Part shown: positions 24,608 to 38,937 of the stretch, piece after piece
Numbering within the stretch: the stretch's first letter is position 1
How the letters are laid out: every line of letters starts with the position of its first letter
Source of the DNA: Psychromonas sp. L1A2
Lineage (GTDB): Bacteria > Pseudomonadota > Gammaproteobacteria > Enterobacterales > Psychromonadaceae
Assembly (NCBI RefSeq): GCF_009828855.1
Contig: NZ_WUAG01000002.1
Coordinates: forward strand, 1,302,001 to 1,366,000
Length of the DNA stretch: 64,000 nt
Direction: 5' to 3'
Notes under the pieces: model-generated
Told to the model about the DNA's origin: nothing
What the model saw: only the letters and a program-made list of their open reading frames with translations
Databases searched by the model: none
Program-made: the position numbers and the translations under genes

Positions 24608-24823
24608 ACATTTTTAATACTTTAAAATAAACAAGATTAATCCTTTTATGTAATGAACATCTCACCCACTCTTTCAATAATCTACAAACAAAAATTAATA
24701 CTTAAAAGCAAATAAATCAAACCAAAACATTATTACATCCTCACCCTGTAAATAATTCACACTTTCGCTCTATTATTTTTCATAAAAACAAAAATACACA
24801 ATAAAAACAATAAGATAAAAAAC

Positions 24824-24839
24824 TGGCACAGTAATGGCA
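24824..24839 (+). promoter_or_regulatory. Predicted sigma-54 promoter of the BON/DUF1328 operon
   Basis: TGGCACAGTAATGGCA has GG and GC exactly ten bases apart and differs from the consensus TGGCACGN4TTGCW at two positions. It lies 36 bp upstream of the start codon at 24876, leaving a transcript leader of about 25 bases. A sigma-54 activator is encoded 3.7 kb downstream. Confidence 0.75.
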
Positions 24840-24875
24840 ATATACTTAATACACATCAAATAAAGGAGAAACAAT

Positions 24876-25430
24876 ATGAAGAGCATGAAAACAATAGCAC
24901 TTTCAACGGTACTACTGACTTCATCAACTATTGCATTAGCAGATCAACAAAGTTGGAAAAATGAATCTCTTGATGCGTGGATAGATGGTAAAGCTGAAAC
25001 AACATTATTATTAAATACTAACTTAAATTCATTTGATATTAATACTGATGTTCATAGTGGTGTTGTTACCTTAACCGGTGCGGTGGATAGCAATCTCGAA
25101 AAATCATTAGCTGGCGAATTAATAGCCGGATTAGATGGTGTAAAAGAAGTAGAAAATAACTTATCTATTTTAGACGAAAATAACCAATCAGATCTCGATG
25201 ATAAAGCATTATCAGCATTAACAGATGCCAAAATCACGACGGTTTTAAAAACAAGATTCTTAATGGCTGAAGATGTTAGCGCAATGGATATTGAAGTAGA
25301 AACAACCAATAACGTTGTTTTGTTAACGGGTAAAGTGAAGTCAGGTACTGAACACGACTTAGCAATGAATATGGCACGTAATACAGAAGATGTTACTAAA
25401 GTTATTGATAAGCTTGAAATTATCCAATAA
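24876..25430 (+). CDS. Periplasmic BON-domain protein (OsmY-like)
   Basis: A 184-residue exported protein with a signal peptide (cut after IALA near residue 22) and two BON domains: residues about 40-95 (LNSFDINTDVHSGVVTLTGAVDS) and 115-184 (AMDIEVETTNNVVLLTGKVKS). OsmY-like proteins are periplasmic and linked to osmotic and envelope stress. The ATG has AAAGGAG. It is the first gene of a short operon with the DUF1328 protein and a lipoprotein, behind a sigma-54 promoter match. Confidence 0.92.
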   Translation: MKSMKTIALSTVLLTSSTIALADQQSWKNESLDAWIDGKAETTLLLNTNLNSFDINTDVHSGVVTLTGAVDSNLEKSLAGELIAGLDGVKEVENNLSILDENNQSDLDDKALSALTDAKITTVLKTRFLMAEDVSAMDIEVETTNNVVLLTGKVKSGTEHDLAMNMARNTEDVTKVIDKLEIIQ

Positions 25431-25503
25431 ACAATATTCATTTCATTTTTGTAATGCACGTTTACAGAGCATTTAGTACCTCATATAAGTAAGGAGAAAT
25501 TAC

Positions 25504-25665
25504 ATGATTCGCTGGGTATTTTTATTTCTCGTCATTGCCTTAATTTCAGCTGTATTTGGATTTGGTGGTATAGCTGGTGCAGCCGCTAGTATTGCTAAAA
25601 TTATATTTTATCTGTTTGCAGTACTGTTTGTTATCTCAATTGTCGCCAACGTAATAAAACGCTAA
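25504..25665 (+). CDS. DUF1328 small membrane protein (YtjA-like)
   Basis: A 53-residue protein of two hydrophobic helices ([20 protein letters not shown] and a second near residues 30-50) separated by [12 protein letters not shown], the hallmark of the DUF1328/YtjA family. TAAGGAG precedes the ATG. Its function is unknown; the family is often found with BON/OsmY proteins in stress operons, as it is here. Confidence 0.92.
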
Positions 25666-25682
25666 AAATAGTAGGAGAAAAA

Positions 25683-25877
25683 ATGACTAATATAAGATCT
25701 TATAAGCACTTTGCAGCAATTTCAGGTTTAGTACTAGCCCTGAGTGCTTGTACTGAAGGTCCTGCAGAAAAGGCAGGCGAAAAAATTGATGATGCATCAA
25801 CTGATATTGGAAATAGTATTGAAGATACCTGTGAAGGTGTGAAAGACACACTTAATGCAGCAGATACAGATTGTTAA
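25683..25877 (+). CDS. Small lipoprotein, hypothetical
   Basis: A 64-residue protein with a lipoprotein signal and lipobox (ALSAC, Cys23). The mature part is about 40 residues, acidic, and contains two further Cys residues (DTCEGVKD and the C-terminal Cys), with a short amphipathic helix EKAGEKIDDASTDIGNSIEDT. It lies 17 bp after the DUF1328 gene behind GTAGGAG. The size and charge recall small entericidin-like or YqjD-like stress proteins, but I do not recognise a family. Confidence 0.8.
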   Translation: MTNIRSYKHFAAISGLVLALSACTEGPAEKAGEKIDDASTDIGNSIEDTCEGVKDTLNAADTDC

Positions 25878-25889
25878 TATTTGTTATTA

Positions 25890-25931
25890 ATAAAAGAGAG
25901 AATAATCCATTTTGATTATTCTCTCTTTTAT
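25890..25931 (+). terminator. Strong terminator after the small lipoprotein gene
   Basis: A perfect 18-bp stem, arms 25890-25907 and 25914-25931, with a six-base loop and TTTTAT at the 3' end. It closes the BON-DUF1328-lipoprotein operon. Confidence 0.9.
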
Positions 25932-26000
25932 CACTGTTTAAACCTTAAATATTCACTGCATTAATCCGAATCAGGTCAAAATATAAAGAAGGAATAAATA

Positions 26001-26432
26001 ATGAATAACATTTTTGAAGCATTACGAGAAAGTCATCAAAAACAACGTGTTTTAATGGAAGCATTATTAAAAACCTCTGGTGACTCATCAACCAGACGTG
26101 AGTTTTACGATGATTTAAAACAAGAACTTAAACTACACGCGATGGCAGAAGAACGTAGCTTTTATGCACCATTGATTAAAGCAGATAAAACCATTGAAAT
26201 ATCACGCCATGGTATCGCAGAGCACCATGAGATTGATAAAATTATTAAGCAATTAGACAATACTGAATTTAGCTCACCAGGATGGCTAACGCTTATGCAA
26301 TCTTTACAGCATAAAGTATCTCATCACCTCGATGAAGAAGAGCAACGCTTCTTCCAAATGGCAGGTAAGGTTTTTACTGCGAAACAAAAACATGCTCTGG
26401 CTGAAGAATATATTGAAGAAATGGCAGTCTAA
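26001..26432 (+). CDS. Hemerythrin HHE-domain protein
   Basis: A 143-residue all-helical protein with the non-haem di-iron pattern: His in LRESHQKQ, HAMAEERSF, a HGIAEHHEIDK segment and HKVSHHLDEEEQRFF. Proteins of this type bind oxygen, nitric oxide or iron, or act in redox stress. The ATG follows AGAAGGAA. It sits between the stress operon and the lipid-kinase fusion gene and could have its own promoter. Confidence 0.9.
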   Translation: MNNIFEALRESHQKQRVLMEALLKTSGDSSTRREFYDDLKQELKLHAMAEERSFYAPLIKADKTIEISRHGIAEHHEIDKIIKQLDNTEFSSPGWLTLMQSLQHKVSHHLDEEEQRFFQMAGKVFTAKQKHALAEEYIEEMAV

Positions 26433-26529
26433 TATTAAATTACTCTAATTGTGTTAACAATACACAATTAATACACGGTCTATTTTTTATTAGAGACTCA
26501 TTTTCTAATTTATTCGCTGAGGAAACCCC

Positions 26530-28149
26530 ATGTTTATTACTAAATTTTATTTATTTGGTACGCTGTTAAGCTTAGCGTTAGCTTGGTTTATCCCACTGCT
26601 AATACTAAAAATATTGTTTTCATGGGTAGCACTTTCCTTAGCGATTGTTAGCTTTGCTTATTTGTTTGATATCCCCTCTATTTTTCGAAAAAATAGTGAT
26701 GGGAAAATACTATGGTGGATCCAATGGGCTTTTATCCCTTTTCTACTTGGTGTTAAAGCTTATAACGCATGGGCAATAAAGAATGATGAGGTTCCACCAA
26801 TACAAAAAATCACTAGTAACCTATACCTTTCAAGACGTTTATTATCATCTGATTTAGACTATTTAAAGTCACAAAATATTGATTGTATTGTCGATGTTAC
26901 AGCAGAGTTTGCTGGTTTAGAAAGTGCGATGACAGATAAGCATTTCGATTATTTAACGATCCCAGTATTAGACCATAAAACGCCCTCTTTACATAAATTA
27001 CGCCACGCGCTTTATTGGATTGACGTACAACTATCACAGTCTCGTTCTGTGGTTATCCATTGTGCTTTAGGTCGTGGGCGATCAGTCTTTGTGATGGCAG
27101 CATATTTATTAAGTCGAGACTCTTCATTAAGTATCGATCAGGCATTAACTCAAATTCATTCTATTCGTAGCTCTGCCAATTTAAATAAGAAACAATACAA
27201 AGTACTGAGTGCAATCAGTAAACAGCAAAAATTAAAACTACCAGAACCAACCTGGATGATTGTTAACCCTGTTTCAGGTGGCGGTAAATGGCAACAATAT
27301 AAACAACAGTTGATTCGTCAATTAAGTACAAAACACCGTCTAAAAATAGTAGAAACAACCCCACAAATTTCAGCAACAGATCTTGCCAAACAAGCTAAAA
27401 AAGCAGAGACGAGTAAAATAATTGTATGTGGTGGAGACGGAACCGTAACGGAAGTCGCCAGCCAACTCATTGATTCAAAAATAATACTCGGGATCGTTCC
27501 TTTTGGTACAACAAACGCTTTATGTCACGTACTGTATGGGTTAGAAGCAAAATACTCTCCAGTAAATGCAGCCTGTAATGCCATTTTATCTGAGCAAGTT
27601 CGTACTATTGATACCGCACAATGTAATGAACAATTGATGTTATTAGCCATGGGTATTGGTTTTGAACAACAAATGATTGCGTCTGCAAATAGAGAGAATA
27701 AAAATGAAAGTGGACAATTTGCATATTTAAATGGGTTCTTTAATGCTGTGGTTTCAAGCGAATCTCAACAGTTAAGTGTAAAAATTAATGGTAAACCACA
27801 ACAAGACTTACATGTTCAAAGCTTGATGGTGGCCAATACCGCCCCATTCAGTACTTTATTAGCTCACGGAGGTAATGCTCCTGAGCCTGATGATGGTAAG
27901 TTACATATGACTTATTTAGATAATACTGATTCATTTACTGAAACAGTGATTGCACTATCTGATTTAGCGGCCTCTAGTTTAGGCCTTCAAGATAAAGCTA
28001 ATCAGTTTCAATATTGTGACGGTGAAAAGATAGAGATCTCTGCAGGTCATGAAATAGCCTATGTTATCGACGGTGAAAACTATAGCGCCCAGAATATCAA
28101 CATAACAGTTCAGCCTTCATCACTTAAGGTCTTTGCTGCTTCTAAATAA
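26530..28149 (+). CDS. Dual-specificity-phosphatase / diacylglycerol-kinase-family fusion protein
   Basis: A 539-residue protein with three parts. Two membrane helices occupy residues 5-50. A dual-specificity (tyrosine-type) phosphatase domain spans roughly 95-240, with the P-loop HCALGRGRS (CX5R, Cys at about 182). From about 245 to the end comes a DAGK-type lipid-kinase domain with WMIVNPVSGGGKW, the nucleotide-binding VCGGDGTVTEVA and FGTTNALCHVL. It would dephosphorylate a substrate, perhaps a phosphoinositide-like lipid or protein, and phosphorylate a lipid at the inner membrane. The natural substrates are unknown. The start is the ATG after GAGGAAACCCC. Confidence 0.87.
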   Translation: MFITKFYLFGTLLSLALAWFIPLLILKILFSWVALSLAIVSFAYLFDIPSIFRKNSDGKILWWIQWAFIPFLLGVKAYNAWAIKNDEVPPIQKITSNLYLSRRLLSSDLDYLKSQNIDCIVDVTAEFAGLESAMTDKHFDYLTIPVLDHKTPSLHKLRHALYWIDVQLSQSRSVVIHCALGRGRSVFVMAAYLLSRDSSLSIDQALTQIHSIRSSANLNKKQYKVLSAISKQQKLKLPEPTWMIVNPVSGGGKWQQYKQQLIRQLSTKHRLKIVETTPQISATDLAKQAKKAETSKIIVCGGDGTVTEVASQLIDSKIILGIVPFGTTNALCHVLYGLEAKYSPVNAACNAILSEQVRTIDTAQCNEQLMLLAMGIGFEQQMIASANRENKNESGQFAYLNGFFNAVVSSESQQLSVKINGKPQQDLHVQSLMVANTAPFSTLLAHGGNAPEPDDGKLHMTYLDNTDSFTETVIALSDLAASSLGLQDKANQFQYCDGEKIEISAGHEIAYVIDGENYSAQNINITVQPSSLKVFAASK

Positions 28150-28534
28150 AGAGTATTAACTGATAGTTTAGATTTAGGTTTAAATTTGACCTTTTCCCTC
28201 GATAGCTTTATCACTTTAATAGCTATCGACTTCTCGTAAAAATCATATGGTTTGTAAAACTATCTATGATAAGCCATCAAAAACAACTCTGAATATAATA
28301 ATGCTGGCTAATAAATACACTACTATTTGGTTTATTTTAAAACGAATATAAGTCCTCTATTTATAACCATATGCATTATAATACATAACCTCTTAACTGC
28401 TTCGTAGACGACTTTTTCTATATCAAATAAAAAGTATCAACTTATAAATTTGACAAAGTTCCAATTCATCGCGATTATTAACTTCCCCCTCCTGAAAAAT
28501 TAAATGATTGATTCATTATCGTGAGATCAAATTA
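28150..28534. other. Intergenic region upstream of the sigma-54 activator gene
   Basis: Contains a weak hairpin at 28199-28229 (TCGATAGCT/AGCTATCGA), which may end the upstream transcript, and a sigma-70-like promoter described separately. The remainder is AT-rich with no other feature seen. Confidence 0.4.
28450..28478 (+). promoter_or_regulatory. Sigma-70-type promoter of the activator gene
   Basis: A perfect -35 TTGACA at 28450-28455 and a weaker -10 GATTAT at 28473-28478 with a 17-bp spacer, about 57 bp upstream of the start codon at 28535. This suggests that the activator is made independently of sigma-54. Confidence 0.45.
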
Positions 28535-29881
28535 ATGCATAAATTAAACTTGTTATTAAGTATCCAAAATAGCTCATTACGCCAAGCTATACTAAGTAAT
28601 TCAGAATTGACTCAATTCAATATTATTGAACTAGAAGCAAGCCAAGATTGGATATCAAAAATCGAAACGATAGCACCTACCGTTGCACTTATTGGGGTGA
28701 ATAGTTTTAGCTCAGAGGATTATGAAGCATTATCTAAACTTGAAGCGTTAAACGAAATGGACTTAATTATTATTAGTTCTGGTGCTCCTAATCCAAATTT
28801 AGATAAATTAATGCAACTAGGTGCGATATTTCATTACCGTATGCCTGTTGATATCGAAATTTTAGCTGAAACATTACAAGATGTAAGACAATCAAATTTA
28901 CCTAAAAGTACGGTAGGACAACAAGTATCCACCAGCGATTTAGATCAATTTGGTTTATTAATTGGCTCATCAAGCCCTATGCACAGGCTATATCGTACGT
29001 TACGTCGTGTAGCAAAAACCGATGCTTCGGTGTTTGTTATCGGGGAAAGTGGAGCGGGTAAAGAACTTGTTGCTCAAACAATCCATCAAGCGAGTGAACG
29101 AAGCCAACATCCTTTTATTGCCATTAATTGTGGTGCAATTAGCCCAGACTTAGTTGATAGCGAACTATTTGGTCATAATAAAGGTGCTTTTACCGGTGCT
29201 GACAAACCTCATGATGGCGTATTTAAACGCGCAGAAGGAGGCACTTTATTCCTTGATGAAATTACTGAAATGCCTATTGAACACCAAGTAAAGTTGTTAC
29301 GCGTATTAGAAACTGGAGAGTATCGTCGAGTTGGGGGAGAAACGGTGCATATAGCTGATACACGTATTATTGCTGCAACCAATCGAGATCCTCAAACAGC
29401 GATTGATGAACAAGAATTAAGAGAAGATTTGTATTTCCGTTTAGCTCACTTCCCAATTAATGTTCCCCCATTGAGAGAAAGAGGTGCTGATATTGTTGGT
29501 CTAGCCAAACACTTTATGGCCCATCAAAATGCGAAAGAAGTAAAAACCAAAACAATTTTAGATAGTGCGCTAGATAAGATTGCAGCTTATGACTGGCCAG
29601 GTAATGTAAGGGAATTAAAACACTCTATTGAAAGAGCATTTATTCTTTCCGATGATGTGATTAAAGAGGAACATATTGTTTCTGATTCTCTTCAAGTACA
29701 AGATGACGATTCGACATTGAACGCATTAGTACCGGTTGGGGTAGCTTTAGTTGCAATTGAAAAAGCAGCGATTGTTAATACCTTAGATAACAATGAAGGT
29801 AATAAAACTAAAACAGCTCAAGAGCTCGGTATCAGTGTGAAAACGCTCTACAATAAACTCGATAAGTATGAAGTGACTTAA
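28535..29881 (+). CDS. Sigma-54-dependent activator with a degenerate receiver domain
   Basis: A 448-residue bacterial enhancer-binding protein. Residues 1-125 look like a receiver fold, but the expected phospho-Asp region reads VALIGVN with no acidic residue at that strand end. The AAA+ domain, about 145-380, has Walker A GESGAGKE, the sigma-54 contact loop GAFTGA and Walker B GGTLFLDEI. The C-terminus is a Fis-type helix-turn-helix (KTAQELGISVKTLYNKLDK). The start is the ATG at 28535 with GAGA upstream; a TTG at 28508 is in frame. I infer that it drives the two nearby sigma-54 promoters. Confidence 0.92.
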   Translation: MHKLNLLLSIQNSSLRQAILSNSELTQFNIIELEASQDWISKIETIAPTVALIGVNSFSSEDYEALSKLEALNEMDLIIISSGAPNPNLDKLMQLGAIFHYRMPVDIEILAETLQDVRQSNLPKSTVGQQVSTSDLDQFGLLIGSSSPMHRLYRTLRRVAKTDASVFVIGESGAGKELVAQTIHQASERSQHPFIAINCGAISPDLVDSELFGHNKGAFTGADKPHDGVFKRAEGGTLFLDEITEMPIEHQVKLLRVLETGEYRRVGGETVHIADTRIIAATNRDPQTAIDEQELREDLYFRLAHFPINVPPLRERGADIVGLAKHFMAHQNAKEVKTKTILDSALDKIAAYDWPGNVRELKHSIERAFILSDDVIKEEHIVSDSLQVQDDDSTLNALVPVGVALVAIEKAAIVNTLDNNEGNKTKTAQELGISVKTLYNKLDKYEVT

Positions 29882-29910
29882 CTAACAATCATTATAAAGT
29901 TAGGATAACT

Positions 29911-29953
29911 AAAATATTGAGTGCACTTAATGATTAAGTGCGCTCAATATTTT
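29911..29953. terminator. Bidirectional terminator between convergent genes
   Basis: A 20-bp stem with one mismatch (29911-29930 against 29934-29953), AAAA at one end and TTTT at the other, with a three-base loop. It fits termination of both the activator gene and the AI-2E-type permease gene. Confidence 0.88.
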
Positions 29954-29976
29954 CAATCACATATACTTGCTTTAAA

Positions 29977-31146
29977 TCACCTTGCTCTCAGCACTAAATG
30001 ACTTCTTCCAAATATATCTAATCGCTCTAATAAAGTGTTTAAGCACACGAGTAATGGCACACCAAGTAACATCCCCATGCTACCCCATAACCATCCCCAT
30101 AAAATTAACCACATAAAAATAATCAACGGATTTAAGTTAAACCTTCTGCCTAATAAAGTAGGTGTAACAAATTGACTTTCAGCCATATTAATCACTAAAT
30201 AAGTCGCAATAATAATGAATGCATAACTCATTGAATCAAATTGAACATAAGTAATAACACCAAAACAGATCATAGAAATGAGTGGACCTAAATAAGGCGC
30301 AAAGTTCATAATGCCTGCTAATGTTCCCCATAGGAATGGGTCTTCAACACCAAATATAAAGAAAACACAGCCAACAACGATACCCAACGCAATATTAATT
30401 AACGTCACCGTACCAATATAACGAGAGAGATCTTTTTGGATCACTCTGACCAATTCCACTGTTTTACGCTTGTTAGATAGATGGTCAAATTGCATTAAAA
30501 AACCAGTAAACAAAGAACGTCCATAACTGAGCATAAAATACGCCATAAAGAGCGAAATCATTAATTGAGTAATAGCAGTCGGTGTTGCTACTGCAATACT
30601 TTTAACCAATGAAACGACGGTTGTACTTCGAAACTCACCGACATTAGAACTACTAACAATTGCCTCATTTAATGCTGAACTTGTGCCTGCGTTGTTGGTT
30701 GCATTAGTCACTTCTTGTGAAATATCTTTCACTAACTCTGGAAGCTTCGACCACCACTGTTGAGCAGGCTCAGTTAATACTGCTACTCCGCCAAATAAAA
30801 GACCAACAATCAAAAAGATAACGCTCAACACCCCTACTGTTCTGGGAATGCCAATTTTTTCTAAATAATTAACTAATGGGCTACATAACAGCGCAATAAA
30901 CGTACTGACCATGACGGGTAATAATATAGACTTACCAAAGTAGATACAGCCAATAAGAACGATAATAAACAAGAACCAAAAACCAATGGTGTATAAGGTT
31001 TTTATATCCTTTTTATTTTGCTTTATATCTTGATCTTCTTGGTCGATAGCGGGGCTATTTTCTTTGGTATAAATTTGCTGTTCATCACTGACTTGAACAG
31101 TTGAAGAGGAGTCATTTATTTGAGTGTTCTTTTGTTTATCCTTCAA
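29977..31146 (-). CDS. AI-2E family transporter (PerM/TqsA-like membrane protein)
   Basis: A 389-residue inner-membrane protein with about eight helices and the family signatures LPVMVSTFIALLCSPLVNYLEKIGIPRT, PYLGPLISMI and LNPLIIFMWLILWGWLWGSMGMLLGVPLL. The first 45 residues form a polar, acidic cytoplasmic tail not found in the shorter members. The start is a TTG at 31146 with GGAG eight bases upstream; no ATG precedes the first helix. Family members export AI-2 or act as sodium/proton antiporters. It lies downstream of the YqjD/YqjE-like genes and probably shares their transcript. Confidence 0.85.
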   Translation of the reverse strand: MKDKQKNTQINDSSSTVQVSDEQQIYTKENSPAIDQEDQDIKQNKKDIKTLYTIGFWFLFIIVLIGCIYFGKSILLPVMVSTFIALLCSPLVNYLEKIGIPRTVGVLSVIFLIVGLLFGGVAVLTEPAQQWWSKLPELVKDISQEVTNATNNAGTSSALNEAIVSSSNVGEFRSTTVVSLVKSIAVATPTAITQLMISLFMAYFMLSYGRSLFTGFLMQFDHLSNKRKTVELVRVIQKDLSRYIGTVTLINIALGIVVGCVFFIFGVEDPFLWGTLAGIMNFAPYLGPLISMICFGVITYVQFDSMSYAFIIIATYLVINMAESQFVTPTLLGRRFNLNPLIIFMWLILWGWLWGSMGMLLGVPLLVCLNTLLERLDIFGRSHLVLRAR

Positions 31147-31184
31147 ATTATATACTCCATTTTTTCTACTTTAATACAACTTAA

Positions 31185-31232
31185 CTTTAATTTGGTTTAG
31201 CTTTAATTTGGCTTAGCTTTAATTTGGCTTAG
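31185..31232. repeat. Three tandem 16-bp repeats
   Basis: CTTTAATTTGGYTTAG occurs three times head to tail at 31185, 31201 and 31217, with one T/C difference. It lies in the 149-bp gap between the small YqjK-like gene and the AI-2E-type permease gene. No function is evident. Confidence 0.8.
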
Positions 31233-31295
31233 CTTAGCCTGACAAGCTTTCATTAGGCTGGCTCTTCTATTTAAGAAATTTAAAACTTCATTACT

Positions 31296-31559
31296 TTACT
31301 TATTTGAGCTGTAATGTTGGCTCAAATAATTTAGACCTAAAGAAGCGATAGGGTATAAAGATTTTATTCTTTTTCTATACCGTGCCAGTAAAGCAGTTGC
31401 AACAGTGACACCGATGGTCACGGCAAACGGGTGCCTTTGAGTTTGCTTGCTAACGGTATACAATAGTAAATTGAGTTTCAATTCGCACTGTCTGGCGGAA
31501 TTCTTACCTTCCAATCGTTTTAAGTTAATCGAATGATTTAGCTGCTTTAGAGATGACAT
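31296..31559 (-). CDS. Small hypothetical protein, YqjK-like by position
   Basis: An 87-residue basic protein with one hydrophobic segment (HPFAVTIGVTVATALLARYRKR) near the middle. The ATG at 31559 has a strong AAAGGAGG six bases upstream and overlaps the end of the YqjE-like gene by 35 bases, which supports translation. It occupies the place of yqjK in the enterobacterial yqjDEK arrangement, but sequence similarity is too weak to assign the family. Confidence 0.72.
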   Translation of the reverse strand: MSSLKQLNHSINLKRLEGKNSARQCELKLNLLLYTVSKQTQRHPFAVTIGVTVATALLARYRKRIKSLYPIASLGLNYLSQHYSSNK

Positions 31560-32037
31560 CTGCGCCCTCCTTTAGTTGAGCAATCGTTTCTTTAAAACCG
31601 AAGAAACGGGTCAGGTATTTTTGCCAATAAATTAACCCCAATAACACTAAACTCATGGCAAGTAAGAAAAACCCCACTGCAATTAATAAGTTATAGGTAA
31701 GACTATAAGCAACGATACCGATACTGACACATAAGCTAAATATAAAGAGAATCAATAAAGGAATAAATAAAAGCTGGCAAACGACAAAACGTTGAGCAGC
31801 GGCAACATTTCTTAATATTTCAACAAAGAAAAGTTTAATTGTAGATTCCGACCACTGACCAGCTTCTTGAGCTATGTTTGATACCTTGTTAAATACATCT
31901 TTGAGATCATCAATTTTGACATCTATCCCATCAGAATTTAACTGCTCGTTATTTAACTCTTCGTTATCTAACAAGGGATCTTTTTGAGTACCTTGAGAGG
32001 CTTTATCTTGATTCGACATATTTGGAGTATTTTCCAT
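31525..32037 (-). CDS. Phage-holin-superfamily membrane protein (YqjE-like)
   Basis: A 170-residue membrane protein. An acidic, Asn/Asp-rich N-terminus of about 75 residues is followed by two helices (QLLFIPLLILFIFSLCVSIGIVAYS and LIAVGFFLLAMSLVLLGLIYW) and a short helical tail. Its position after a YqjD-like gene and the topology indicate the YqjE family, which anchors in the inner membrane and is linked to stationary-phase ribosome association through YqjD. AGAGAGG precedes the ATG. The acidic N-terminal extension is longer than in E. coli. Confidence 0.75.
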   Translation of the reverse strand: MENTPNMSNQDKASQGTQKDPLLDNEELNNEQLNSDGIDVKIDDLKDVFNKVSNIAQEAGQWSESTIKLFFVEILRNVAAAQRFVVCQLLFIPLLILFIFSLCVSIGIVAYSLTYNLLIAVGFFLLAMSLVLLGLIYWQKYLTRFFGFKETIAQLKEGADVISKAAKSFD

Positions 32038-32061
32038 AATAAAACCTCTCTGGTGACTTAA

Positions 32062-32310
32062 TTATTTTATCAGTTTTGAAACAGCCCATCCGGCTAAAAA
32101 AGCACAGCCAATACTTAATAATGGGCGTTCTTTAATAATATTTTCAGCCTGACTTGTTACTGATTTTACTTTTTCAGAACCTTCACTTAACGATTCTTGT
32201 GCTTTATTTTTTAAAGAGTGAACGGCTTCAGAAGTCGCTTCTTCAGCTAAATGATACGCTTCTTCGATTTTTTGTTGTGACTCTTGAGTTTTTGCTTTTG
32301 GTGTAGCCAT
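32062..32310 (-). CDS. DUF883 family protein (YqjD/ElaB-like)
   Basis: An 82-residue protein with a long amphipathic helix rich in Glu, Lys and Ala (IEEAYHLAEEATSEAVHSLKNKAQ), ending in the C-terminal membrane anchor ERPLLSIGCAFLAGWAVSKLI, the hallmark of DUF883. In E. coli YqjD and ElaB are inner-membrane proteins that bind stationary-phase ribosomes. AAGGAG precedes the ATG. It is the first gene of the operon running to the AI-2E-type permease, behind a sigma-54 promoter match. Confidence 0.9.
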   Translation of the reverse strand: MATPKAKTQESQQKIEEAYHLAEEATSEAVHSLKNKAQESLSEGSEKVKSVTSQAENIIKERPLLSIGCAFLAGWAVSKLIK

Positions 32311-32431
32311 TTTAAATCTCCTTAATTACAGAATGTATAATATGATTTCACGCTAAAAATAGGGTTATATACTTGTTTATCAAACCTGTTCAGATAAACG
32401 TCCCTAAATATTTGTTATTCTCTTTTAACAT

Positions 32432-32447
32432 TGCGAAAGCCATGCCA
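32432..32447 (-). promoter_or_regulatory. Predicted sigma-54 promoter of the YqjD-like operon
   Basis: On the minus strand the site reads TGGCATGGCTTTCGCA, with GG and GC ten bases apart and two mismatches to the consensus. It lies about 120 bp upstream of the DUF883 start. It faces the sigma-54 promoter at 24824 across the activator gene. Confidence 0.7.
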
Positions 32448-32654
32448 CATTTAGAAACCCGCAAAAAATAACCATAAGAAACTGATTATTAAAACCTTTA
32501 TTTAAAATAAAAATTTAATGTAAATATTATCAAAGGCTAAACTTTGTATTTTCTACCGATACTTGTATGCGACCATGTAAAAGTTACTCAGTAAATGTCT
32601 AAAGCCCATTATAAAAAGTAATGAATATTTTTAATGTGAATATATAGCGTATTT

Positions 32655-33093: not shown

Positions 33094-34032
33094 TTATTCA
33101 GTCACTTCAGGTGGTTTTAAGAAGTATGACTCTGCTAGTTCATTATGGAGACCCGCTAACTTGATTTGCACTTGATCAATGTAATCATGTAAATCACCAT
33201 TTTTAAGTGCTCTAACATCTTTATTTTTTAATTCCTGAATGACTTCATCGATTAATTTAATCAACTCTACAGAATGGATAAGGGGTTCCATTAACTGTTT
33301 TAACTCATATAAACAGAATAAAATCGAGCGAGGGAAAACTTCACTGTGCATAATAAATTCTATAACGTCAGCGCGTTGTACACGTACTCCCATTTGCTGG
33401 CGATACATTTGATAAGCACTCATTGAGCGTAATAAACTAATCCATTGAATATTTTCATAGGGTTTAGCTTCTTCGTTTGTAATTAACGTAGCAGAGCGGA
33501 TATCTAAAATTCGAGAGGTCATATCTGCACGTTCGATCATTAAGCCAAATCGAATAAAAACATAACCTTGATCATGATTAATTGTGGCATCTAATGTTCC
33601 GAATATCATGTGTGTGGATTCAATGATTTTCTTTAAATAAGCAAATCGACCACGCTTACTCAAACCTTCATTTTGATTATCTTTAACGTAGTAATATAAA
33701 GAATTAATCTCTTCCCACACATCTCTTGGTATCACATCACGAATAGTACGTGCGCTTTCACGCGCAGAGATAATCGAGTTAAGAATTGATGAGTTATTAT
33801 CATGCCCAACTAACAAGTAGCGTAAGGCTTTCGATTCAGAAAAGTCAGTATGATTTTCTTGGTATGCTTGTCGCACACCGATAATGTCGATTAAAGGCTC
33901 CCAACCTGTACTCACCCCTTTAGGCAGATCCATAATCAACATATTATTAACATTAATTAAACGGGCTACATTTTCTGCACGTTCAATATAGCGAGACACC
34001 CAATATAAAGTTTCACATACTCTTGATAACAT
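33094..34032 (-). CDS. Alpha-E domain protein (DUF403)
   Basis: A 312-residue helical protein of the alpha-E family: MLSRVCETLYWVSRYIERAENVARLI at the N-terminus and the repeated Arg/Glu-rich helices through LLRSMSAYQMYRQQ and VEFI-type segments are typical. The family is always found with circularly permuted ATP-grasp enzymes and is thought to help them or use their product. I start at the ATG at 34032, one base after the ATP-grasp stop, with GAGGCGAAA upstream. It is the split-module counterpart of the C-terminal half of the 839-residue protein in the same operon. Confidence 0.9.
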   Translation of the reverse strand: MLSRVCETLYWVSRYIERAENVARLINVNNMLIMDLPKGVSTGWEPLIDIIGVRQAYQENHTDFSESKALRYLLVGHDNNSSILNSIISARESARTIRDVIPRDVWEEINSLYYYVKDNQNEGLSKRGRFAYLKKIIESTHMIFGTLDATINHDQGYVFIRFGLMIERADMTSRILDIRSATLITNEEAKPYENIQWISLLRSMSAYQMYRQQMGVRVQRADVIEFIMHSEVFPRSILFCLYELKQLMEPLIHSVELIKLIDEVIQELKNKDVRALKNGDLHDYIDQVQIKLAGLHNELAESYFLKPPEVTE

Positions 34033-34033
34033 A

Positions 34034-35488
34034 TTATTTCGCCTCTTCGTCAACAATCCAAGTATCTTTACTACCACCACCCTGTGATGAGTTCACCACT
34101 AAGGAACCTTTCACCATAGCAACACGTGTTAAACCACCAGTTGTGACCTGAGTATCTTTACCCGATGATAAAATAAATGGTCTTAAGTCTGCATGACGAC
34201 CATCAGGTTCAATACCATCTAAAGTGGGTACAGTAGACAAATCTAATGTAGGTTGAGCCACCCAATTTCTTGGGTCTGCTTTAATTTGTGCAATGGTTTC
34301 TTGCTGCTGCTTTTTAGTCGACTTAGGTCCAATTAATAAACCGTAACCACCTGATTCATTGGCAGGTTTAATCACCAACTTATCGATGTTTTTAATAACA
34401 TGGTCACACTCTTTTGGATCCATGCACTTAAAAGTCGGGACATTAGCGAGTTTCGCATCTTCGCCTAAGTAATACTTGATCATCTCAGGCACATAAGCGT
34501 AAACAACTTTATCATCCGCAACACCTGCACCTGGTGCATTAACTAAAGCAACATTACCTTTAGACCAAGCTCGCATTAAGCCAGGAACACCTAATTGAGA
34601 ATCAGGTAAGAATGCTTCTGGATCTAAAAACAGATCATCAATTCGACGATAAATAACATCGACTCGCTGTAAACCAGTGATTGTTCTCATGTACACACAA
34701 TCATCTTTTTCTACGACTAAATCTCTGCCTTCGACCAATTCACAACCCATCTCTTGAGCCAGATAACAATGTTCAAAATAAGCAGAGTTAAAGACACCTG
34801 GTGTTAATACAACCACTTCAGGTTTATCTTGAGGACGTGGAGACATTGCCGCTAACATATCAAATAGTTGCGAAGGATAATCATCGACAGGTAAGATGGA
34901 AACTTGCTCAAATAATTCGGGGAAAACGCGTTTCATTACCGAACGGTTTTCAAGCATATATGATACACCGGAAGGAACACGTAAATTATCTTCCAGTACA
35001 TACATAGTACCACTACCATCTCGGACTAAATCAGAGCCACATATATGTGCCCATATTTTATTAGGAGGATTAATACCGACACATTGAGAGCGGAAATTAA
35101 CAGATTTTTCTAATAAACCTTTTGGAAAAATACCGTCCTTTATAATTTTTTGGTCATGGTATAAATCATCAATAAATAGATTCAACGCTTCAACACGTTG
35201 TTTTAAACCAACCTCTATACCTTGCCATTCTTTTTTGCCAATAGTACGAGGAATAATATCAAAGGGCCATGCCCTATCTATCATGTTACCTTCATCGTAA
35301 ACCGTAAAGCTAATACCCATTTCTTTAATTGCTAAATCTGCAACTGCTCTTGCTTTTGTTAATTCTTCCCCTGATAAACTAGAAAAAAACTGAGCTAATT
35401 GCTTTCCGTGTAATCTGACGTTTCCTTTTCCATCAATTAATTCATCAAAAAACCCATTTGTGTTATACGCTTTCCAATCAATTCCCAT
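34034..35488 (-). CDS. Circularly permuted ATP-grasp protein (DUF404/DUF407)
   Basis: A 484-residue ATP-dependent ligase-type protein. Key family segments are FDIIPR, GVSYMLENR, the acidic GRDLVVEKDDCVYMRT region, VDVIYRRIDD, VNAPGAGVADDKVVYAYVP and LVIKPANESGGYGLLIGP, giving the permuted ATP-grasp order. I start at the ATG at 35488 because AAAGGCGG lies just upstream; the frame is open to 35509. Such enzymes are predicted to form an amide or peptide bond, perhaps making or adding a small peptide. The substrate is unknown. The alpha-E gene follows directly. Confidence 0.9.
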   Translation of the reverse strand: MGIDWKAYNTNGFFDELIDGKGNVRLHGKQLAQFFSSLSGEELTKARAVADLAIKEMGISFTVYDEGNMIDRAWPFDIIPRTIGKKEWQGIEVGLKQRVEALNLFIDDLYHDQKIIKDGIFPKGLLEKSVNFRSQCVGINPPNKIWAHICGSDLVRDGSGTMYVLEDNLRVPSGVSYMLENRSVMKRVFPELFEQVSILPVDDYPSQLFDMLAAMSPRPQDKPEVVVLTPGVFNSAYFEHCYLAQEMGCELVEGRDLVVEKDDCVYMRTITGLQRVDVIYRRIDDLFLDPEAFLPDSQLGVPGLMRAWSKGNVALVNAPGAGVADDKVVYAYVPEMIKYYLGEDAKLANVPTFKCMDPKECDHVIKNIDKLVIKPANESGGYGLLIGPKSTKKQQQETIAQIKADPRNWVAQPTLDLSTVPTLDGIEPDGRHADLRPFILSSGKDTQVTTGGLTRVAMVKGSLVVNSSQGGGSKDTWIVDEEAK

Positions 35489-35542
35489 ACACTGTTCCGC
35501 CTTTTTCATTATTAACTTATATAAAATATAAAGTTGTAAAAA

Positions 35543-36421
35543 TTACTCTAATCGAATCATATCTACTGCTACATCTAATTGCTGAGAACCACCACCAAAC
35601 ACAACTCCTTTTAAAGGAGTGACATCAGAAAAATCTCGTCCAACGGCTAAAGTGATATGTTGGTCAGTGGGTAAAACGTTGTTAGTAGGATCAAAATCAA
35701 CCCAGCCTACACCAGGGAAAAACACAGCGAACCAAGCATGAGTTGCATCAGCACCTTCTAATTTTTCTTCGCCTTCGGGCGGCATTGTTTCAATGTACCC
35801 ACTAACATATCTTCCAGCTAACCCCATACTACGTAAGCAAGCTAGTGCAAAGTGTGCAAAGTCTTGGCAAACGCCCCTTTTTTGTGCAAAAACAACACTT
35901 AAAGGCGTGCTAATCGTAGTAAAACCAGGATCATAATAAAATTCATGAAAAATTCGTGCCATTAAATGATTACATGCATCAATTAAATTTTTATTAGGTG
36001 TAAAAGACACTAATGCATAATCTTTAATTCCCTCATCTAGAGGTGTAAGCTGCGACGGCAAAGTAAATTCAGCCGCTTTTAATAGTTCTGTTGTATTAGG
36101 TTTAAATAGCAAATCACGAACTTTTTCCCACGTAATATCAAGGTCATTTAAATTGTTATTCGCCCCCATCAGTAGTTCAACTTCACTGATCATGGTGACG
36201 GTTAATATTTTATGTTGAGTAGCAATTTCAAAAACGGTCACATTATTATTAAAATAGTCCGTAAACTGACGTAAGTAGTTTGTCGGAGGATAAATTTCAA
36301 TGCGACTGTGATGGCATATTTGTCCACGATCCGTTTTCGGTGTTAAGCGGGCTTGGTTTTGACACAAGCTTACAAAGTCCGTGTAATGGTATGTGGTGGT
36401 ATGTTTTATTTTATATTTCAC
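35543..36421 (-). CDS. Transglutaminase-like cysteine protease/transferase
   Basis: A 292-residue protein. Residues 1-85 form the bacterial transglutaminase N-terminal beta domain (MKYKIKHTTTYHYTDFVSLCQNQARLTPK). The core has the catalytic triad Cys in KRGVCQDFAHFA, His in ATHAWFAVFFPG and Asp in WVDFDPTN. The start is a GTG whose last two bases are part of the preceding gene's TGA. In ATP-grasp/alpha-E clusters these are predicted to cleave or transfer a peptide. No signal peptide is visible. Confidence 0.9.
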   Translation of the reverse strand: MKYKIKHTTTYHYTDFVSLCQNQARLTPKTDRGQICHHSRIEIYPPTNYLRQFTDYFNNNVTVFEIATQHKILTVTMISEVELLMGANNNLNDLDITWEKVRDLLFKPNTTELLKAAEFTLPSQLTPLDEGIKDYALVSFTPNKNLIDACNHLMARIFHEFYYDPGFTTISTPLSVVFAQKRGVCQDFAHFALACLRSMGLAGRYVSGYIETMPPEGEEKLEGADATHAWFAVFFPGVGWVDFDPTNNVLPTDQHITLAVGRDFSDVTPLKGVVFGGGSQQLDVAVDMIRLE

Positions 36422-38937
36422 GATTGAGCTTGTTCAATGTTGGTCCAGTTTAATTTATTAGCTGTTTGCGTATGAGAGAAGTATTGTAGTAGCAATACAT
36501 CACAAAAAGTATCTAAGTTCATACGAATATTATGGCTAAATTCTATTAATTGTTGACGCTGCCCCTCAACACTTTTTTGTAGATAATCTTTTTCAGTTAA
36601 ATAACAGGTTGTTTTAGATAATAAAATTGCTTTTTCATGTGCTGCAATTAATCCAGGTCGACGTTTAGTTGGGAGGTGCTGGCAAAGTTGATTAATTTGC
36701 TCTAACTGAAAAAGTAGCGATCGTGGATATTCCGCATCCAATAATAATAACTCTAATCCAGTCCCGATACTTTGATACATACGATAACGACGCTTATGTG
36801 TCACTAAACTTACTTGGCAACTCAATACCGCTTCTATTAAACCAATCTCTTCTGATTCATCTAGCTCTTCGGTTAATAACGCAGAACTTAATGACGTTAT
36901 TTGAATACTCCGCTCAATCCGACGGCCAATTTCTAATAAGAACCAACCATTACTATTAGGCATACAATCCGCAATTGAGCCATTAAAGGCCATGATTGAT
37001 CCTATGATTCTATCCAGCATGCTTTGCATCGCACGTGTGGAAATGTTGATGTTAATATTTTTTAGTAGTTGAACCTGCGTATTAATATCATCAATCATTC
37101 TTCGACTGTCATGAGATAATAGCTCACGAGTTTGTACTGCAGCATTCGACAGGTATTTAAGTGTATTAATAATACTGCCTGCACATTGCTCATCAGCTAA
37201 CAACTGGAAGGCTACTTGCTTAGATAATAGAGGATCAAAGTCATCTAATTTTGCTTGTTGTTCTATATATGGATACACAATGTGTTGTGTGCGGATAGCA
37301 TTTGAAAATCGACCGACAATGTTTAGTCGAGTAGCATCTGGAGAGATAGCCAGTTCAGTGTATCTATCTATAAAAATACGCAAAATACGCACGGTATTTT
37401 CACATCTTTCTAAATATCGCCCTAACCAAAATAAATGCTCTGCAGTTCGACTAGAAATAACACCTTCTAGTAGAGTTACATCCATTCTTTTTTTGATTGG
37501 ATTAGGGACATTGTGTAGGTCTAAATCAGTCTTATCTGCGGTATTTATCCACGTATCTTTAATCCAACCAGACACATTTGGATCATTACTTATCTCATTG
37601 GAAAAACATAAAGCAGAAGGTAATACTTCAACACCATTTTTAGTTGTTAAAGCATAACACCTAAAAATAACGGGTTTAGCGATTAGCTTTCCATCATCCC
37701 AAAAAGGGGCGGTACTAAAAATAGGCTTATCTTGAAAGTAATAATTATTAGGCTCTTCATCAATCAATAAGGTAATTTTATCCGCATCTTTAGTGCCATC
37801 TAACTTAACCCGTTTATTTTTATAACTGACTAACTCAAGTAAATCCCAATCTAACGCTTTAGCTTGTTCTACATTATAATAATTAGGCTCACCGATAATA
37901 AGCGGCTTATTTAAAAGCTGTTCCGATAGTTTCGCTAAATTGCATTGAATCACTGGCGACGATAACACCCCACTACCAAATGGGTTTAATACTTTAACCG
38001 AACCTTCACGCACTGCCTGTAATAGCCCTGGAATGCCATGTAATGAATATTCAGTTTGCTCTAATGAATCGATAAAGCGATCAGCTACCCAGCGAATAAT
38101 GACATTGATTTTGCCTAAACCTTGTAATGATTTTAAACAAACTTCACCATTACGTACGGTCAAATCGGCACTTTGCACTAAGGTATAGCCAAAGTAAGCA
38201 GATAAAAAAGCATGTTCATTATAATTTGGATCGTCACTACCTTGAGTCAGAATAACGACTCTAGGATCTTCCATATATTGAGTATATTCGTTAATGCCTT
38301 CTTGGAAATGCTTCAAGAAACCTTTAATTTGCTGAACATTACACTCTGCAAATTCTTCAGCCATAATACGTCGAGCAATAATACGGCTTTCAACTAATAA
38401 CCCCATGCCTAAAGGACATTGGCAATGATCCGCCAGTACTTTGAATTCACCAGAAGGCGTACGGTAGACATCAAGCGCAGTAAAAAATAACTTTAGCTCT
38501 TCAGGAGGAAGACTAAAGCCTTCACGAAGGTAATTACTATCTTGGTATAATTGTTGTGCTGAAATATGACCATCAAGTAATAACTTTTGTTCTCCGTAAA
38601 TATCCTGCTGAATTTTGTTTAATAAAATGGTTCTTTGTTTAATGCCCTCTTCCAGTAAAGCCCACTCTGATTTAGAGAACATAAAAGGTAAGGGATCAAA
38701 ATGCCACTGAGATTGACTTTCGAGGTTAGTATTACCGTTTTGTAATAGTTGACTAATTTCTATGGCACGGCTGCTAATATCTTCAGCTGTTAAACTATCT
38801 AGTCGATTAAATAAGGTATCCCACTGTTCAGGTGAATCACCGCCATGATTAGCCAGTTCGTCATGAACATGGGGGGTTTTCAGATATAAGGACAGCCATT
38901 TAGGCAATGCCGACATAGAGTGGTTTTTAATATACAA
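36418..38937 (-). CDS. Fused circularly permuted ATP-grasp and alpha-E domain protein
   Basis: An 839-residue fusion. Residues to about 480 form the permuted ATP-grasp part (LPPEELKLFF, LVESRIIARRIMAEEF, GKINVIIRWVADRFID, LNPFGSGVLSS); the rest, from SSRTAEHLFWLGRYLERCENTVRILR, is an alpha-E domain. The two enzymes encoded separately at 33094-35488 are here one chain, so the operon carries the module twice. The ATP-grasp half is divergent, and LLIDEEPNNYYFQDKP replaces the usual KPANESGGYG loop, so its activity may differ. Start options are the TTG at 38937 (GGAG ten bases upstream, used here) and an ATG at 38916 without a ribosome site. Confidence 0.85.
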   Translation of the reverse strand: MYIKNHSMSALPKWLSLYLKTPHVHDELANHGGDSPEQWDTLFNRLDSLTAEDISSRAIEISQLLQNGNTNLESQSQWHFDPLPFMFSKSEWALLEEGIKQRTILLNKIQQDIYGEQKLLLDGHISAQQLYQDSNYLREGFSLPPEELKLFFTALDVYRTPSGEFKVLADHCQCPLGMGLLVESRIIARRIMAEEFAECNVQQIKGFLKHFQEGINEYTQYMEDPRVVILTQGSDDPNYNEHAFLSAYFGYTLVQSADLTVRNGEVCLKSLQGLGKINVIIRWVADRFIDSLEQTEYSLHGIPGLLQAVREGSVKVLNPFGSGVLSSPVIQCNLAKLSEQLLNKPLIIGEPNYYNVEQAKALDWDLLELVSYKNKRVKLDGTKDADKITLLIDEEPNNYYFQDKPIFSTAPFWDDGKLIAKPVIFRCYALTTKNGVEVLPSALCFSNEISNDPNVSGWIKDTWINTADKTDLDLHNVPNPIKKRMDVTLLEGVISSRTAEHLFWLGRYLERCENTVRILRIFIDRYTELAISPDATRLNIVGRFSNAIRTQHIVYPYIEQQAKLDDFDPLLSKQVAFQLLADEQCAGSIINTLKYLSNAAVQTRELLSHDSRRMIDDINTQVQLLKNININISTRAMQSMLDRIIGSIMAFNGSIADCMPNSNGWFLLEIGRRIERSIQITSLSSALLTEELDESEEIGLIEAVLSCQVSLVTHKRRYRMYQSIGTGLELLLLDAEYPRSLLFQLEQINQLCQHLPTKRRPGLIAAHEKAILLSKTTCYLTEKDYLQKSVEGQRQQLIEFSHNIRMNLDTFCDVLLLQYFSHTQTANKLNWTNIEQAQS

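Follow-up and report, generated by a model that had tools for sequence, protein, structure and literature searches.

A predicted sigma-54 regulon with its own activator gene between two facing promoters in Psychromonas sp. L1A2

What switches on two operons for envelope-type proteins that face one another across 7.6 kb, each headed by an apparent sigma-54 promoter, with a gene for a sigma-54 activator between them? The question is raised by an interval of the Psychromonas sp. L1A2 genome lying within the 64,000-nucleotide stretch that was analysed (the window, C2:1302001-1366000, where C2 is the second contig of the two-contig 4.34-Mb genome; positions given below are those of the window). The answer to which the sequence points, with a probability of roughly 0.8, is a self-contained sigma-54 regulon, in which the local activator, a bacterial enhancer-binding protein (bEBP), would open both of the facing promoters. 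Its parts are not equally secure: control by sigma-54 and the bEBP is very likely for the genes of the BON and DUF1328 proteins and likely for the YqjD-like operon.

The first -24/-12 element, TGGCACAGTAATGGCA (24824..24839, plus strand), starts 52 nucleotides (nt) before the start codon of the BON gene and is the predicted promoter of a BON-DUF1328-lipoprotein operon; the second, TGGCATGGCTTTCGCA (32432..32447, minus strand), starts 137 nt before the start codon of the YqjD-like operon that it would serve. Both have the GG-N10-GC spacing, and they face inward with an intact bEBP gene between them. A preliminary description of this DNA had placed the two elements exactly here, in this orientation and with this spacing, and had given the gene order as BON, DUF1328 and lipoprotein (plus strand), YqjD-like to AI-2E-type permease (minus strand) and the bEBP gene (plus strand); in all of this it was correct. 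It had also credited each element with two differences from the sigma-54 consensus; against TGGCACN5TTGCW, TGGCACAGTAATGGCA has one mismatch and TGGCATGGCTTTCGCA two. Motif rarity is of no help in judging these elements. At three or fewer mismatches the window holds 264 matches where 264.65 are expected, which is chance, and additional one-mismatch matches lie at 2151 and 35946 (among the matches listed); bare motif counting in the window was rejected as evidence on this account. It is the comparison across relatives that makes the two predicted promoters credible. A further strong -24/-12 match elsewhere in the genome (C2:71963, L199) was set aside, as it lies inside an open reading frame.

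The comparison covered 44 loci selected through their bEBP match (46 loci less the duplicates L150 and L153; 18 of the 44 were taken from a list of 80 bEBP loci, whose other 62, with more distant bEBPs, were left out). The 300 nt upstream of each gene were scanned with a sigma-54 matrix of untrained weights, and a match of at least 12 bits was counted as a site. Sites precede 31 of 40 BON open reading frames, 10 of 12 YqjD-like genes and 19 of 30 DUF1328 genes; among the other genes of the same loci the count is 19/537, or 16/379 where more than 80 nt are free upstream. All 19 site-bearing DUF1328 genes are separated by at least 187 nt from the next gene on the same strand. Ten of the 11 that have no site sit 16-91 nt behind BON, and so can share the BON transcript, and the eleventh (in L155) sits 48 nt behind another open reading frame. 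The same scan gave 7/33 for the lipoprotein gene (none within 140 nt), 3/31 for a gene encoding a phosphatase-lipid kinase fusion enzyme, 0/10 for a hemerythrin (HHE) gene, and no site upstream of the AI-2E permease (0/8), 87-amino-acid protein (0/7), holin-like protein (0/10) or bEBP (0/44) genes.

Conservation in relatives was a check that the preliminary description itself proposed for its promoters, and both are kept in the five closest loci and in most of the wider ones. Across five Psychromonas loci, 12 of the 16 columns of the BON element and 14 of the 16 columns of the YqjD-like element are invariant. With the upstream limit set at 250 nt, BON genes have a site in 5/5 Psychromonas loci near the window, 2/2 of a second Psychromonas group, 5/5 of Vibrio and f21, 12/13 of the Shewanella group and 3/3 of f15, and YqjD-like genes have one in 5/5 Psychromonas and 5/5 Vibrio/f21 loci (handles lacking names were assigned to lineage groups by the authors from family label and similarity). 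A search for BON genes in 99 relatives listed 15 close and 24 distant places, of which 9 and 16, respectively, were examined. A sigma-54 site precedes all nine of the close homologues, and seven have the palindrome described below (some overlap the 44 loci); none of the 16 distant places, mostly with lipoprotein-type starts that we take to recall DolP, reaches 12 bits (highest 11.3).

An operator was sought by an unbiased search for dyads of palindromic 4-mers, with gaps of 3-24, in the 220 nt upstream of 60 promoters, all with a site scoring 11 bits or more no further than 190 nt away and with 150 nt or more of DNA upstream. The top dyad, TTAC-N10-GTAA, is found at 21 of the 60 promoters, compared with a mean of 0.5 and a maximum of 5 in 20 shuffles, and at 9/348 controls. 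With the gap relaxed to N9-11 it is found at 27/32 BON and 14/18 DUF1328 promoters (41/50) and at 17/348 controls. Of 42 palindrome centres, 39 fall no more than some 2 nt from one of three positions (-82, -93 or -104, counted from the -24 element), with steps between these of approximately one helical turn. In the window, TTACATCCTCACCCTGTAA (24733..24751, plus strand), whose first base lies 91 nt ahead of the initial T of the -24 element, is the predicted upstream activator site (UAS) at BON. A UAS followed at N61-91 by a promoter has a single match in the genome, at BON, and the reversed control has none (for spacings of 61-91 only). Close to the promoters, the exact IHF consensus WATCAANNNNTTR lies within 60 nt upstream of the -24 element at 16 of the 60, the corresponding controls being a shuffle mean of 0.69 (maximum 4) and 5/348 control upstreams; it is found at 0/60 in each of two windows further upstream.

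The activator (28535..29881, plus strand; PF00158 227 bits, PF02954 47.7 bits with a cut-off of 22) is composed, in order, of a receiver-like N-terminal domain, an AAA+ domain with the GAFTGA motif, and a Fis-type helix-turn-helix (HTH). The features that define a bEBP, a sigma-54 interaction domain and a Fis-type DNA-binding domain, are both present, and in 17 aligned sequences five of the six GAFTGA residues (217-222) are invariant and one is nearly so. A structure model (17 sequences; mean predicted local distance difference test score 73.7, predicted template-modelling score 0.48) has an alternating five-strand N-domain of receiver type. Its solved relatives by fold are NtrC1, NtrX, LuxO, FleQ and VpsR (8p53, 8pb9 and 7v2b are among the matches of the FleQ/VpsR type), with whole-chain template-modelling scores near 0.5 because the placement of the domains is uncertain. 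The receiver is degenerate. In a residue register that rests on NtrC positions, column 54, the place of the phosphorylated Asp, is Gly in 5 of the 17 sequences (all Psychromonas; Gly54 in the window protein), Glu in 10 and Gln in 2; the acidic pair after beta-1 is missing, no more than a single acidic residue being left (column 12); and the conserved-Lys column 103 holds Gln 6, Met 5, Lys 3, Ser 2 and Ala 1. The protein thus has neither the phosphorylatable Asp nor the acidic pair of an NtrC-type response regulator, and phosphorylation at column 54 is probably not its switch.

As the preliminary description had it, the activator gene has a sigma-70-like promoter of its own, TTGACA-17-GATTAT (28450..28478, plus strand; 10/12 matches), in which the TTGACA is shared without change by five Psychromonas loci; over the region as a whole, sigma-70-like matches do not exceed shuffles (28 vs 35.0). 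That promoter, together with the absence of a sigma-54 site upstream of the bEBP gene in the 44 loci, suggests that the bEBP is probably made constantly and switched by a ligand or partner. Read-through into the gene from the BON operon is possible in Psychromonas.

These elements can be assembled into a model. A housekeeping promoter of sigma-70 type would provide a bEBP with a receiver-like N-domain devoid of the usual phosphorylation site, and a signal would be sensed by that domain or by a partner. The bEBP would then bind the palindrome TTACA-N8/9-TGTAA some 80-105 bp upstream, the DNA would be bent (in many relatives at the IHF-like site immediately ahead of -24), and the AAA+ ring would open the RNA polymerase-sigma-54 complex at the two facing promoters. 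One promoter would yield the exported double-BON protein, the DUF1328 membrane protein and the lipoprotein; the other, the YqjD-like anchor protein, the YqjE-like membrane protein, the 87-amino-acid protein and the AI-2E-type permease. The products (BON, DUF1328, lipoprotein, lipid kinase, AI-2E-type permease) point to the envelope. They may protect it under stress and perhaps rest membrane-bound ribosomes; envelope protection with ribosome resting is the best functional reading that we can infer, although no DUF883 match is listed for the YqjD-like protein.

How does such a module relate to what is already known? The psp genes form a sigma-54 envelope-stress regulon with a dedicated bEBP gene, pspF, adjoining its target, and with a UAS and an IHF site; PspF itself is without an N-terminal domain, and PspA holds it in check. 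Here too a bEBP gene lies near envelope-type sigma-54 targets that have a UAS and an IHF-like site, but the window bEBP differs in having a receiver-like N-domain (in the model), and no psp gene was found among the ten proteins scanned, nor was a kinase. The domain order (receiver, AAA+, Fis HTH) is common to LuxO and NtrC1, from which the window family is set apart by Gly, Glu or Gln in place of the phosphorylated Asp. In FleQ and VpsR the receiver fold lacks a phosphorylatable Asp, as in the window protein; however, they are only ~27-34% identical to it and have other targets, and the comparison extends to the fold and the missing Asp only. In E. coli, osmY, ytjA and yqjDE are general stress genes under RpoS. 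The product types encoded in the window are similar, but their genes have sigma-54-type promoters. The BON protein fails the OsmY test (PRK10568, 69.6 bits vs a cut-off of 174), and no DUF883 model is listed for the YqjD-like protein at E values up to 10, in a search whose HMMER filters can drop weak matches; the YqjE-like protein scores 24.3 bits vs a cut-off of 28.4.

The preliminary description had read the region as a stress or envelope regulon rewired to sigma-54. What remains of that interpretation is its architecture, two inward-facing, conserved sigma-54 promoters, one per operon, with an activator between them; what stays conjectural is the replacement of RpoS, which is encoded in the same genome (one match above the family cut-off), and the scores against the families of the E. 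coli proteins are those just given. The 'rewired general stress regulon' is thus a plausible hypothesis. The presence of RpoS and the resemblance of the products to those of E. coli RpoS genes would suit dual control, with sigma-54 and the bEBP adding an envelope signal atop general stress control of RpoS type and replacing nothing. We consider this somewhat unlikely: the sigma-70-like matches of the region, at 28 vs 35.0 in shuffles, speak against it, and its second promoter is hypothetical.

Several findings weigh against the self-contained regulon itself. The loci are related to one another and were selected by their bEBP, which makes the counts interdependent and not blind to linkage; the sigma-54 matrix had assumed rather than trained weights; and the evidence is that of sequence. 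Some of the counted sites are probably chance (for example that of the L052 BON gene, at 280 nt). Within 250 nt, BON sites are found in only 1/2 loci of f10, 1/3 of Psychrosphaera/f8, 1/6 of Rheinheimera/f7 and 0/1 for L060, and the YqjD-like genes of L060 and L061 have none (0/2). The IHF-like site of the BON promoter in the window departs from the consensus at two positions. Finally, the BON-type palindrome is present at only 1 of the 10 YqjD-like promoters, and the genome encodes ten strong bEBPs (plus three weak AAA+ matches) for one RpoN, so that another bEBP could act at either promoter.

The missing palindrome (9/10) and the ten bEBP genes are also what would commend a division of labour in which the BON promoter answers to the local bEBP and the YqjD-like promoter, although a sigma-54 promoter, is served by a different activator. 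Most YqjD-like promoters have, instead of the palindrome, GTAA-N3-TTAC (5/10) or repeated TTACA half-sites. The possible activator site in the window, GTAACTTTTACATGG (32573..32587, minus strand), is of this half-site kind, and 13 of its 15 columns do not vary across five Psychromonas loci; a search with its pattern has a single match, which, for a pattern derived from the site itself, shows uniqueness only. Since TTACA/TGTAA half-sites are kept within each lineage, and since the YqjD-like operon and its sigma-54 site lie near the bEBP gene in five Psychromonas and five Vibrio/f21 loci (in a bEBP-selected set), we regard a different activator as improbable, and infer from the half-sites that the same one may act at both promoters. 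That the -24/-12 matches are chance and that the genes are expressed from sigma-70 or sigma-S promoters, as the chance-level motif counts of the window, the presence of RpoS and the RpoS dependence of the E. coli relatives might suggest, is very hard to reconcile with conservation over several families, a site at all 19 of the DUF1328 genes whose upstream DNA is free, the phasing of the palindrome and a control rate of 19/537.

The self-contained regulon, if that is what it is, extends well beyond this genome. The nearest named relatives of the bEBP are those of other Psychromonas (95, 93, 78 and 77% identity), and relatives at 50-95% identity are found in Psychromonas, Vibrio, Shewanella, Rheinheimera, Arsukibacterium, Psychrosphaera and Alteromonas; a match at E <= 1e-88 is present in 28 of 394 genomes drawn from the order. 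Beside the bEBP gene in the 44 loci stand BON (39), lipoprotein (33), fusion enzyme (31), DUF1328 (30), YqjD-like (12) and HHE (10) genes, in varying order and strand. Of 24 Psychromonas genomes, seven show a BON gene at E <= 1e-10, and they are the same seven whose best bEBP match is at E <= 1e-78 (next best 1.2e-72); at a looser limit, two further Psychromonas have weak BON matches (2.7e-10 and 5.6e-7). The genes of the module being physically linked, this agreement is co-inheritance and not independent evidence.

One genome suggests action in trans. About 230 kb from its first module, on the same contig, G085 carries an unlinked second one (L195 6504-11121), in which the bEBP is divergent and in pieces and the frame for the fusion enzyme (lipid kinase) has one internal stop; its order is UAS, sigma-54 site, BON, DUF1328, lipoprotein, HHE, fusion enzyme and an MscS-like gene (the last labelled by eye, without a family search). 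That promoter and operator are kept beside a decayed bEBP gene suggests control in trans by the intact copy. G058, whose bEBP is 45% identical, has a UAS and sigma-54 site upstream of BON and a second such pair at the head of a set encoding a 148-amino-acid protein, DUF1328 and lipoprotein (L196 2450-3405); the 148-amino-acid protein is a possible further member of the regulon. In L159 (G240), the bEBP and BON genes are each in two pieces, through decay or assembly error. L060 (Marinagarivorans) and L061 (a Pseudomonadales bacterium) have activators at 47-49% identity near YqjD-like genes; the DUF1328 gene of L060 has a sigma-54 site and no BON-type palindrome.

A broader proposition is that a sigma-54 stress regulon not described so far is widespread in mostly marine Gammaproteobacteria. 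A single activator, independent of phosphorylation, would there switch on envelope proteins (BON, DUF1328, lipoprotein and, in one copy, perhaps an MscS-type channel) and proteins of ribosome-anchoring or dormancy type (YqjD-like, hemerythrin), and sigma-54 would do the work that RpoS does in E. coli. We advance it tentatively, at somewhat less than even odds. Sigma-54 promoters are silent without an activator, and the arrangement would therefore place under a tight switch gene types that E. coli runs in its broad RpoS response. A defined operator, an activator and a few targets make the extent of sigma-54 rule over stress physiology directly testable, and the module raises the question of the signal for a degenerate receiver. 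It fits the view of sigma-54 taken by Francke et al. (PMC3162934). No description of the gene cluster was found in the literature searched, which included PMC3162934, PMC9817140, PMC13159725, PMC8262913, PMC4635465 and PMC12316311.

The first operon begins with the exported, OsmY-like double-BON protein (24876..25430, plus strand; PF04972 113.7 bits, two stretches), followed by the small DUF1328 membrane protein (25504..25665, plus; PF07043 54 bits, above its cut-off of 27), which we take to be of the YtjA family, and the small lipoprotein-like protein (25683..25877, plus), which has no Pfam or NCBIfam match and has a homologue in 33 of the 44 loci, often beside DUF1328. Next comes an 18-bp hairpin (25890..25931, plus; -21.9 kcal/mol, z -7.3) that may terminate or attenuate the BON transcript, although it is not among the calls of the terminator scan. 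A hairpin of different sequence occupies the equivalent place, after the lipoprotein gene, in L047 and L048; its position being kept while its sequence differs between lineages, the hairpin may set read-through into the HHE, lipid kinase and activator genes. Two genes of the interval that the preliminary description had not named (26001-28149) encode the hemerythrin (HHE) protein (26001..26432, plus; PF01814 59.1 bits, and weakly NF053874, 41 bits vs a cut-off of 190) and the dual-specificity phosphatase fused to a YegS-type lipid kinase (26530..28149, plus; PF00782 and PF00781; PRK12361 770.5 bits, cut-off 505).

The YqjD-like operon, all on the minus strand, starts with the small YqjD-like protein (32062..32310), whose C-terminal end resembles a membrane anchor and is nearly invariant in 10 homologues. 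It continues with the YqjE/holin-like membrane protein (31525..32037; PF07332, under its cut-off as stated above) and the 87-amino-acid protein (31296..31559), which has no family match and has homologues in four Psychromonas relatives and L035, and ends with the AI-2E family permease (29977..31146; PF01594 180 bits). Adjoining the module, at 33094-38937 of the window, are genes for an alpha-E protein, two circularly permuted ATP-grasp proteins and a transglutaminase-like protein (labels assigned by eye), and the same neighbours are found in L032, L033 and L034.

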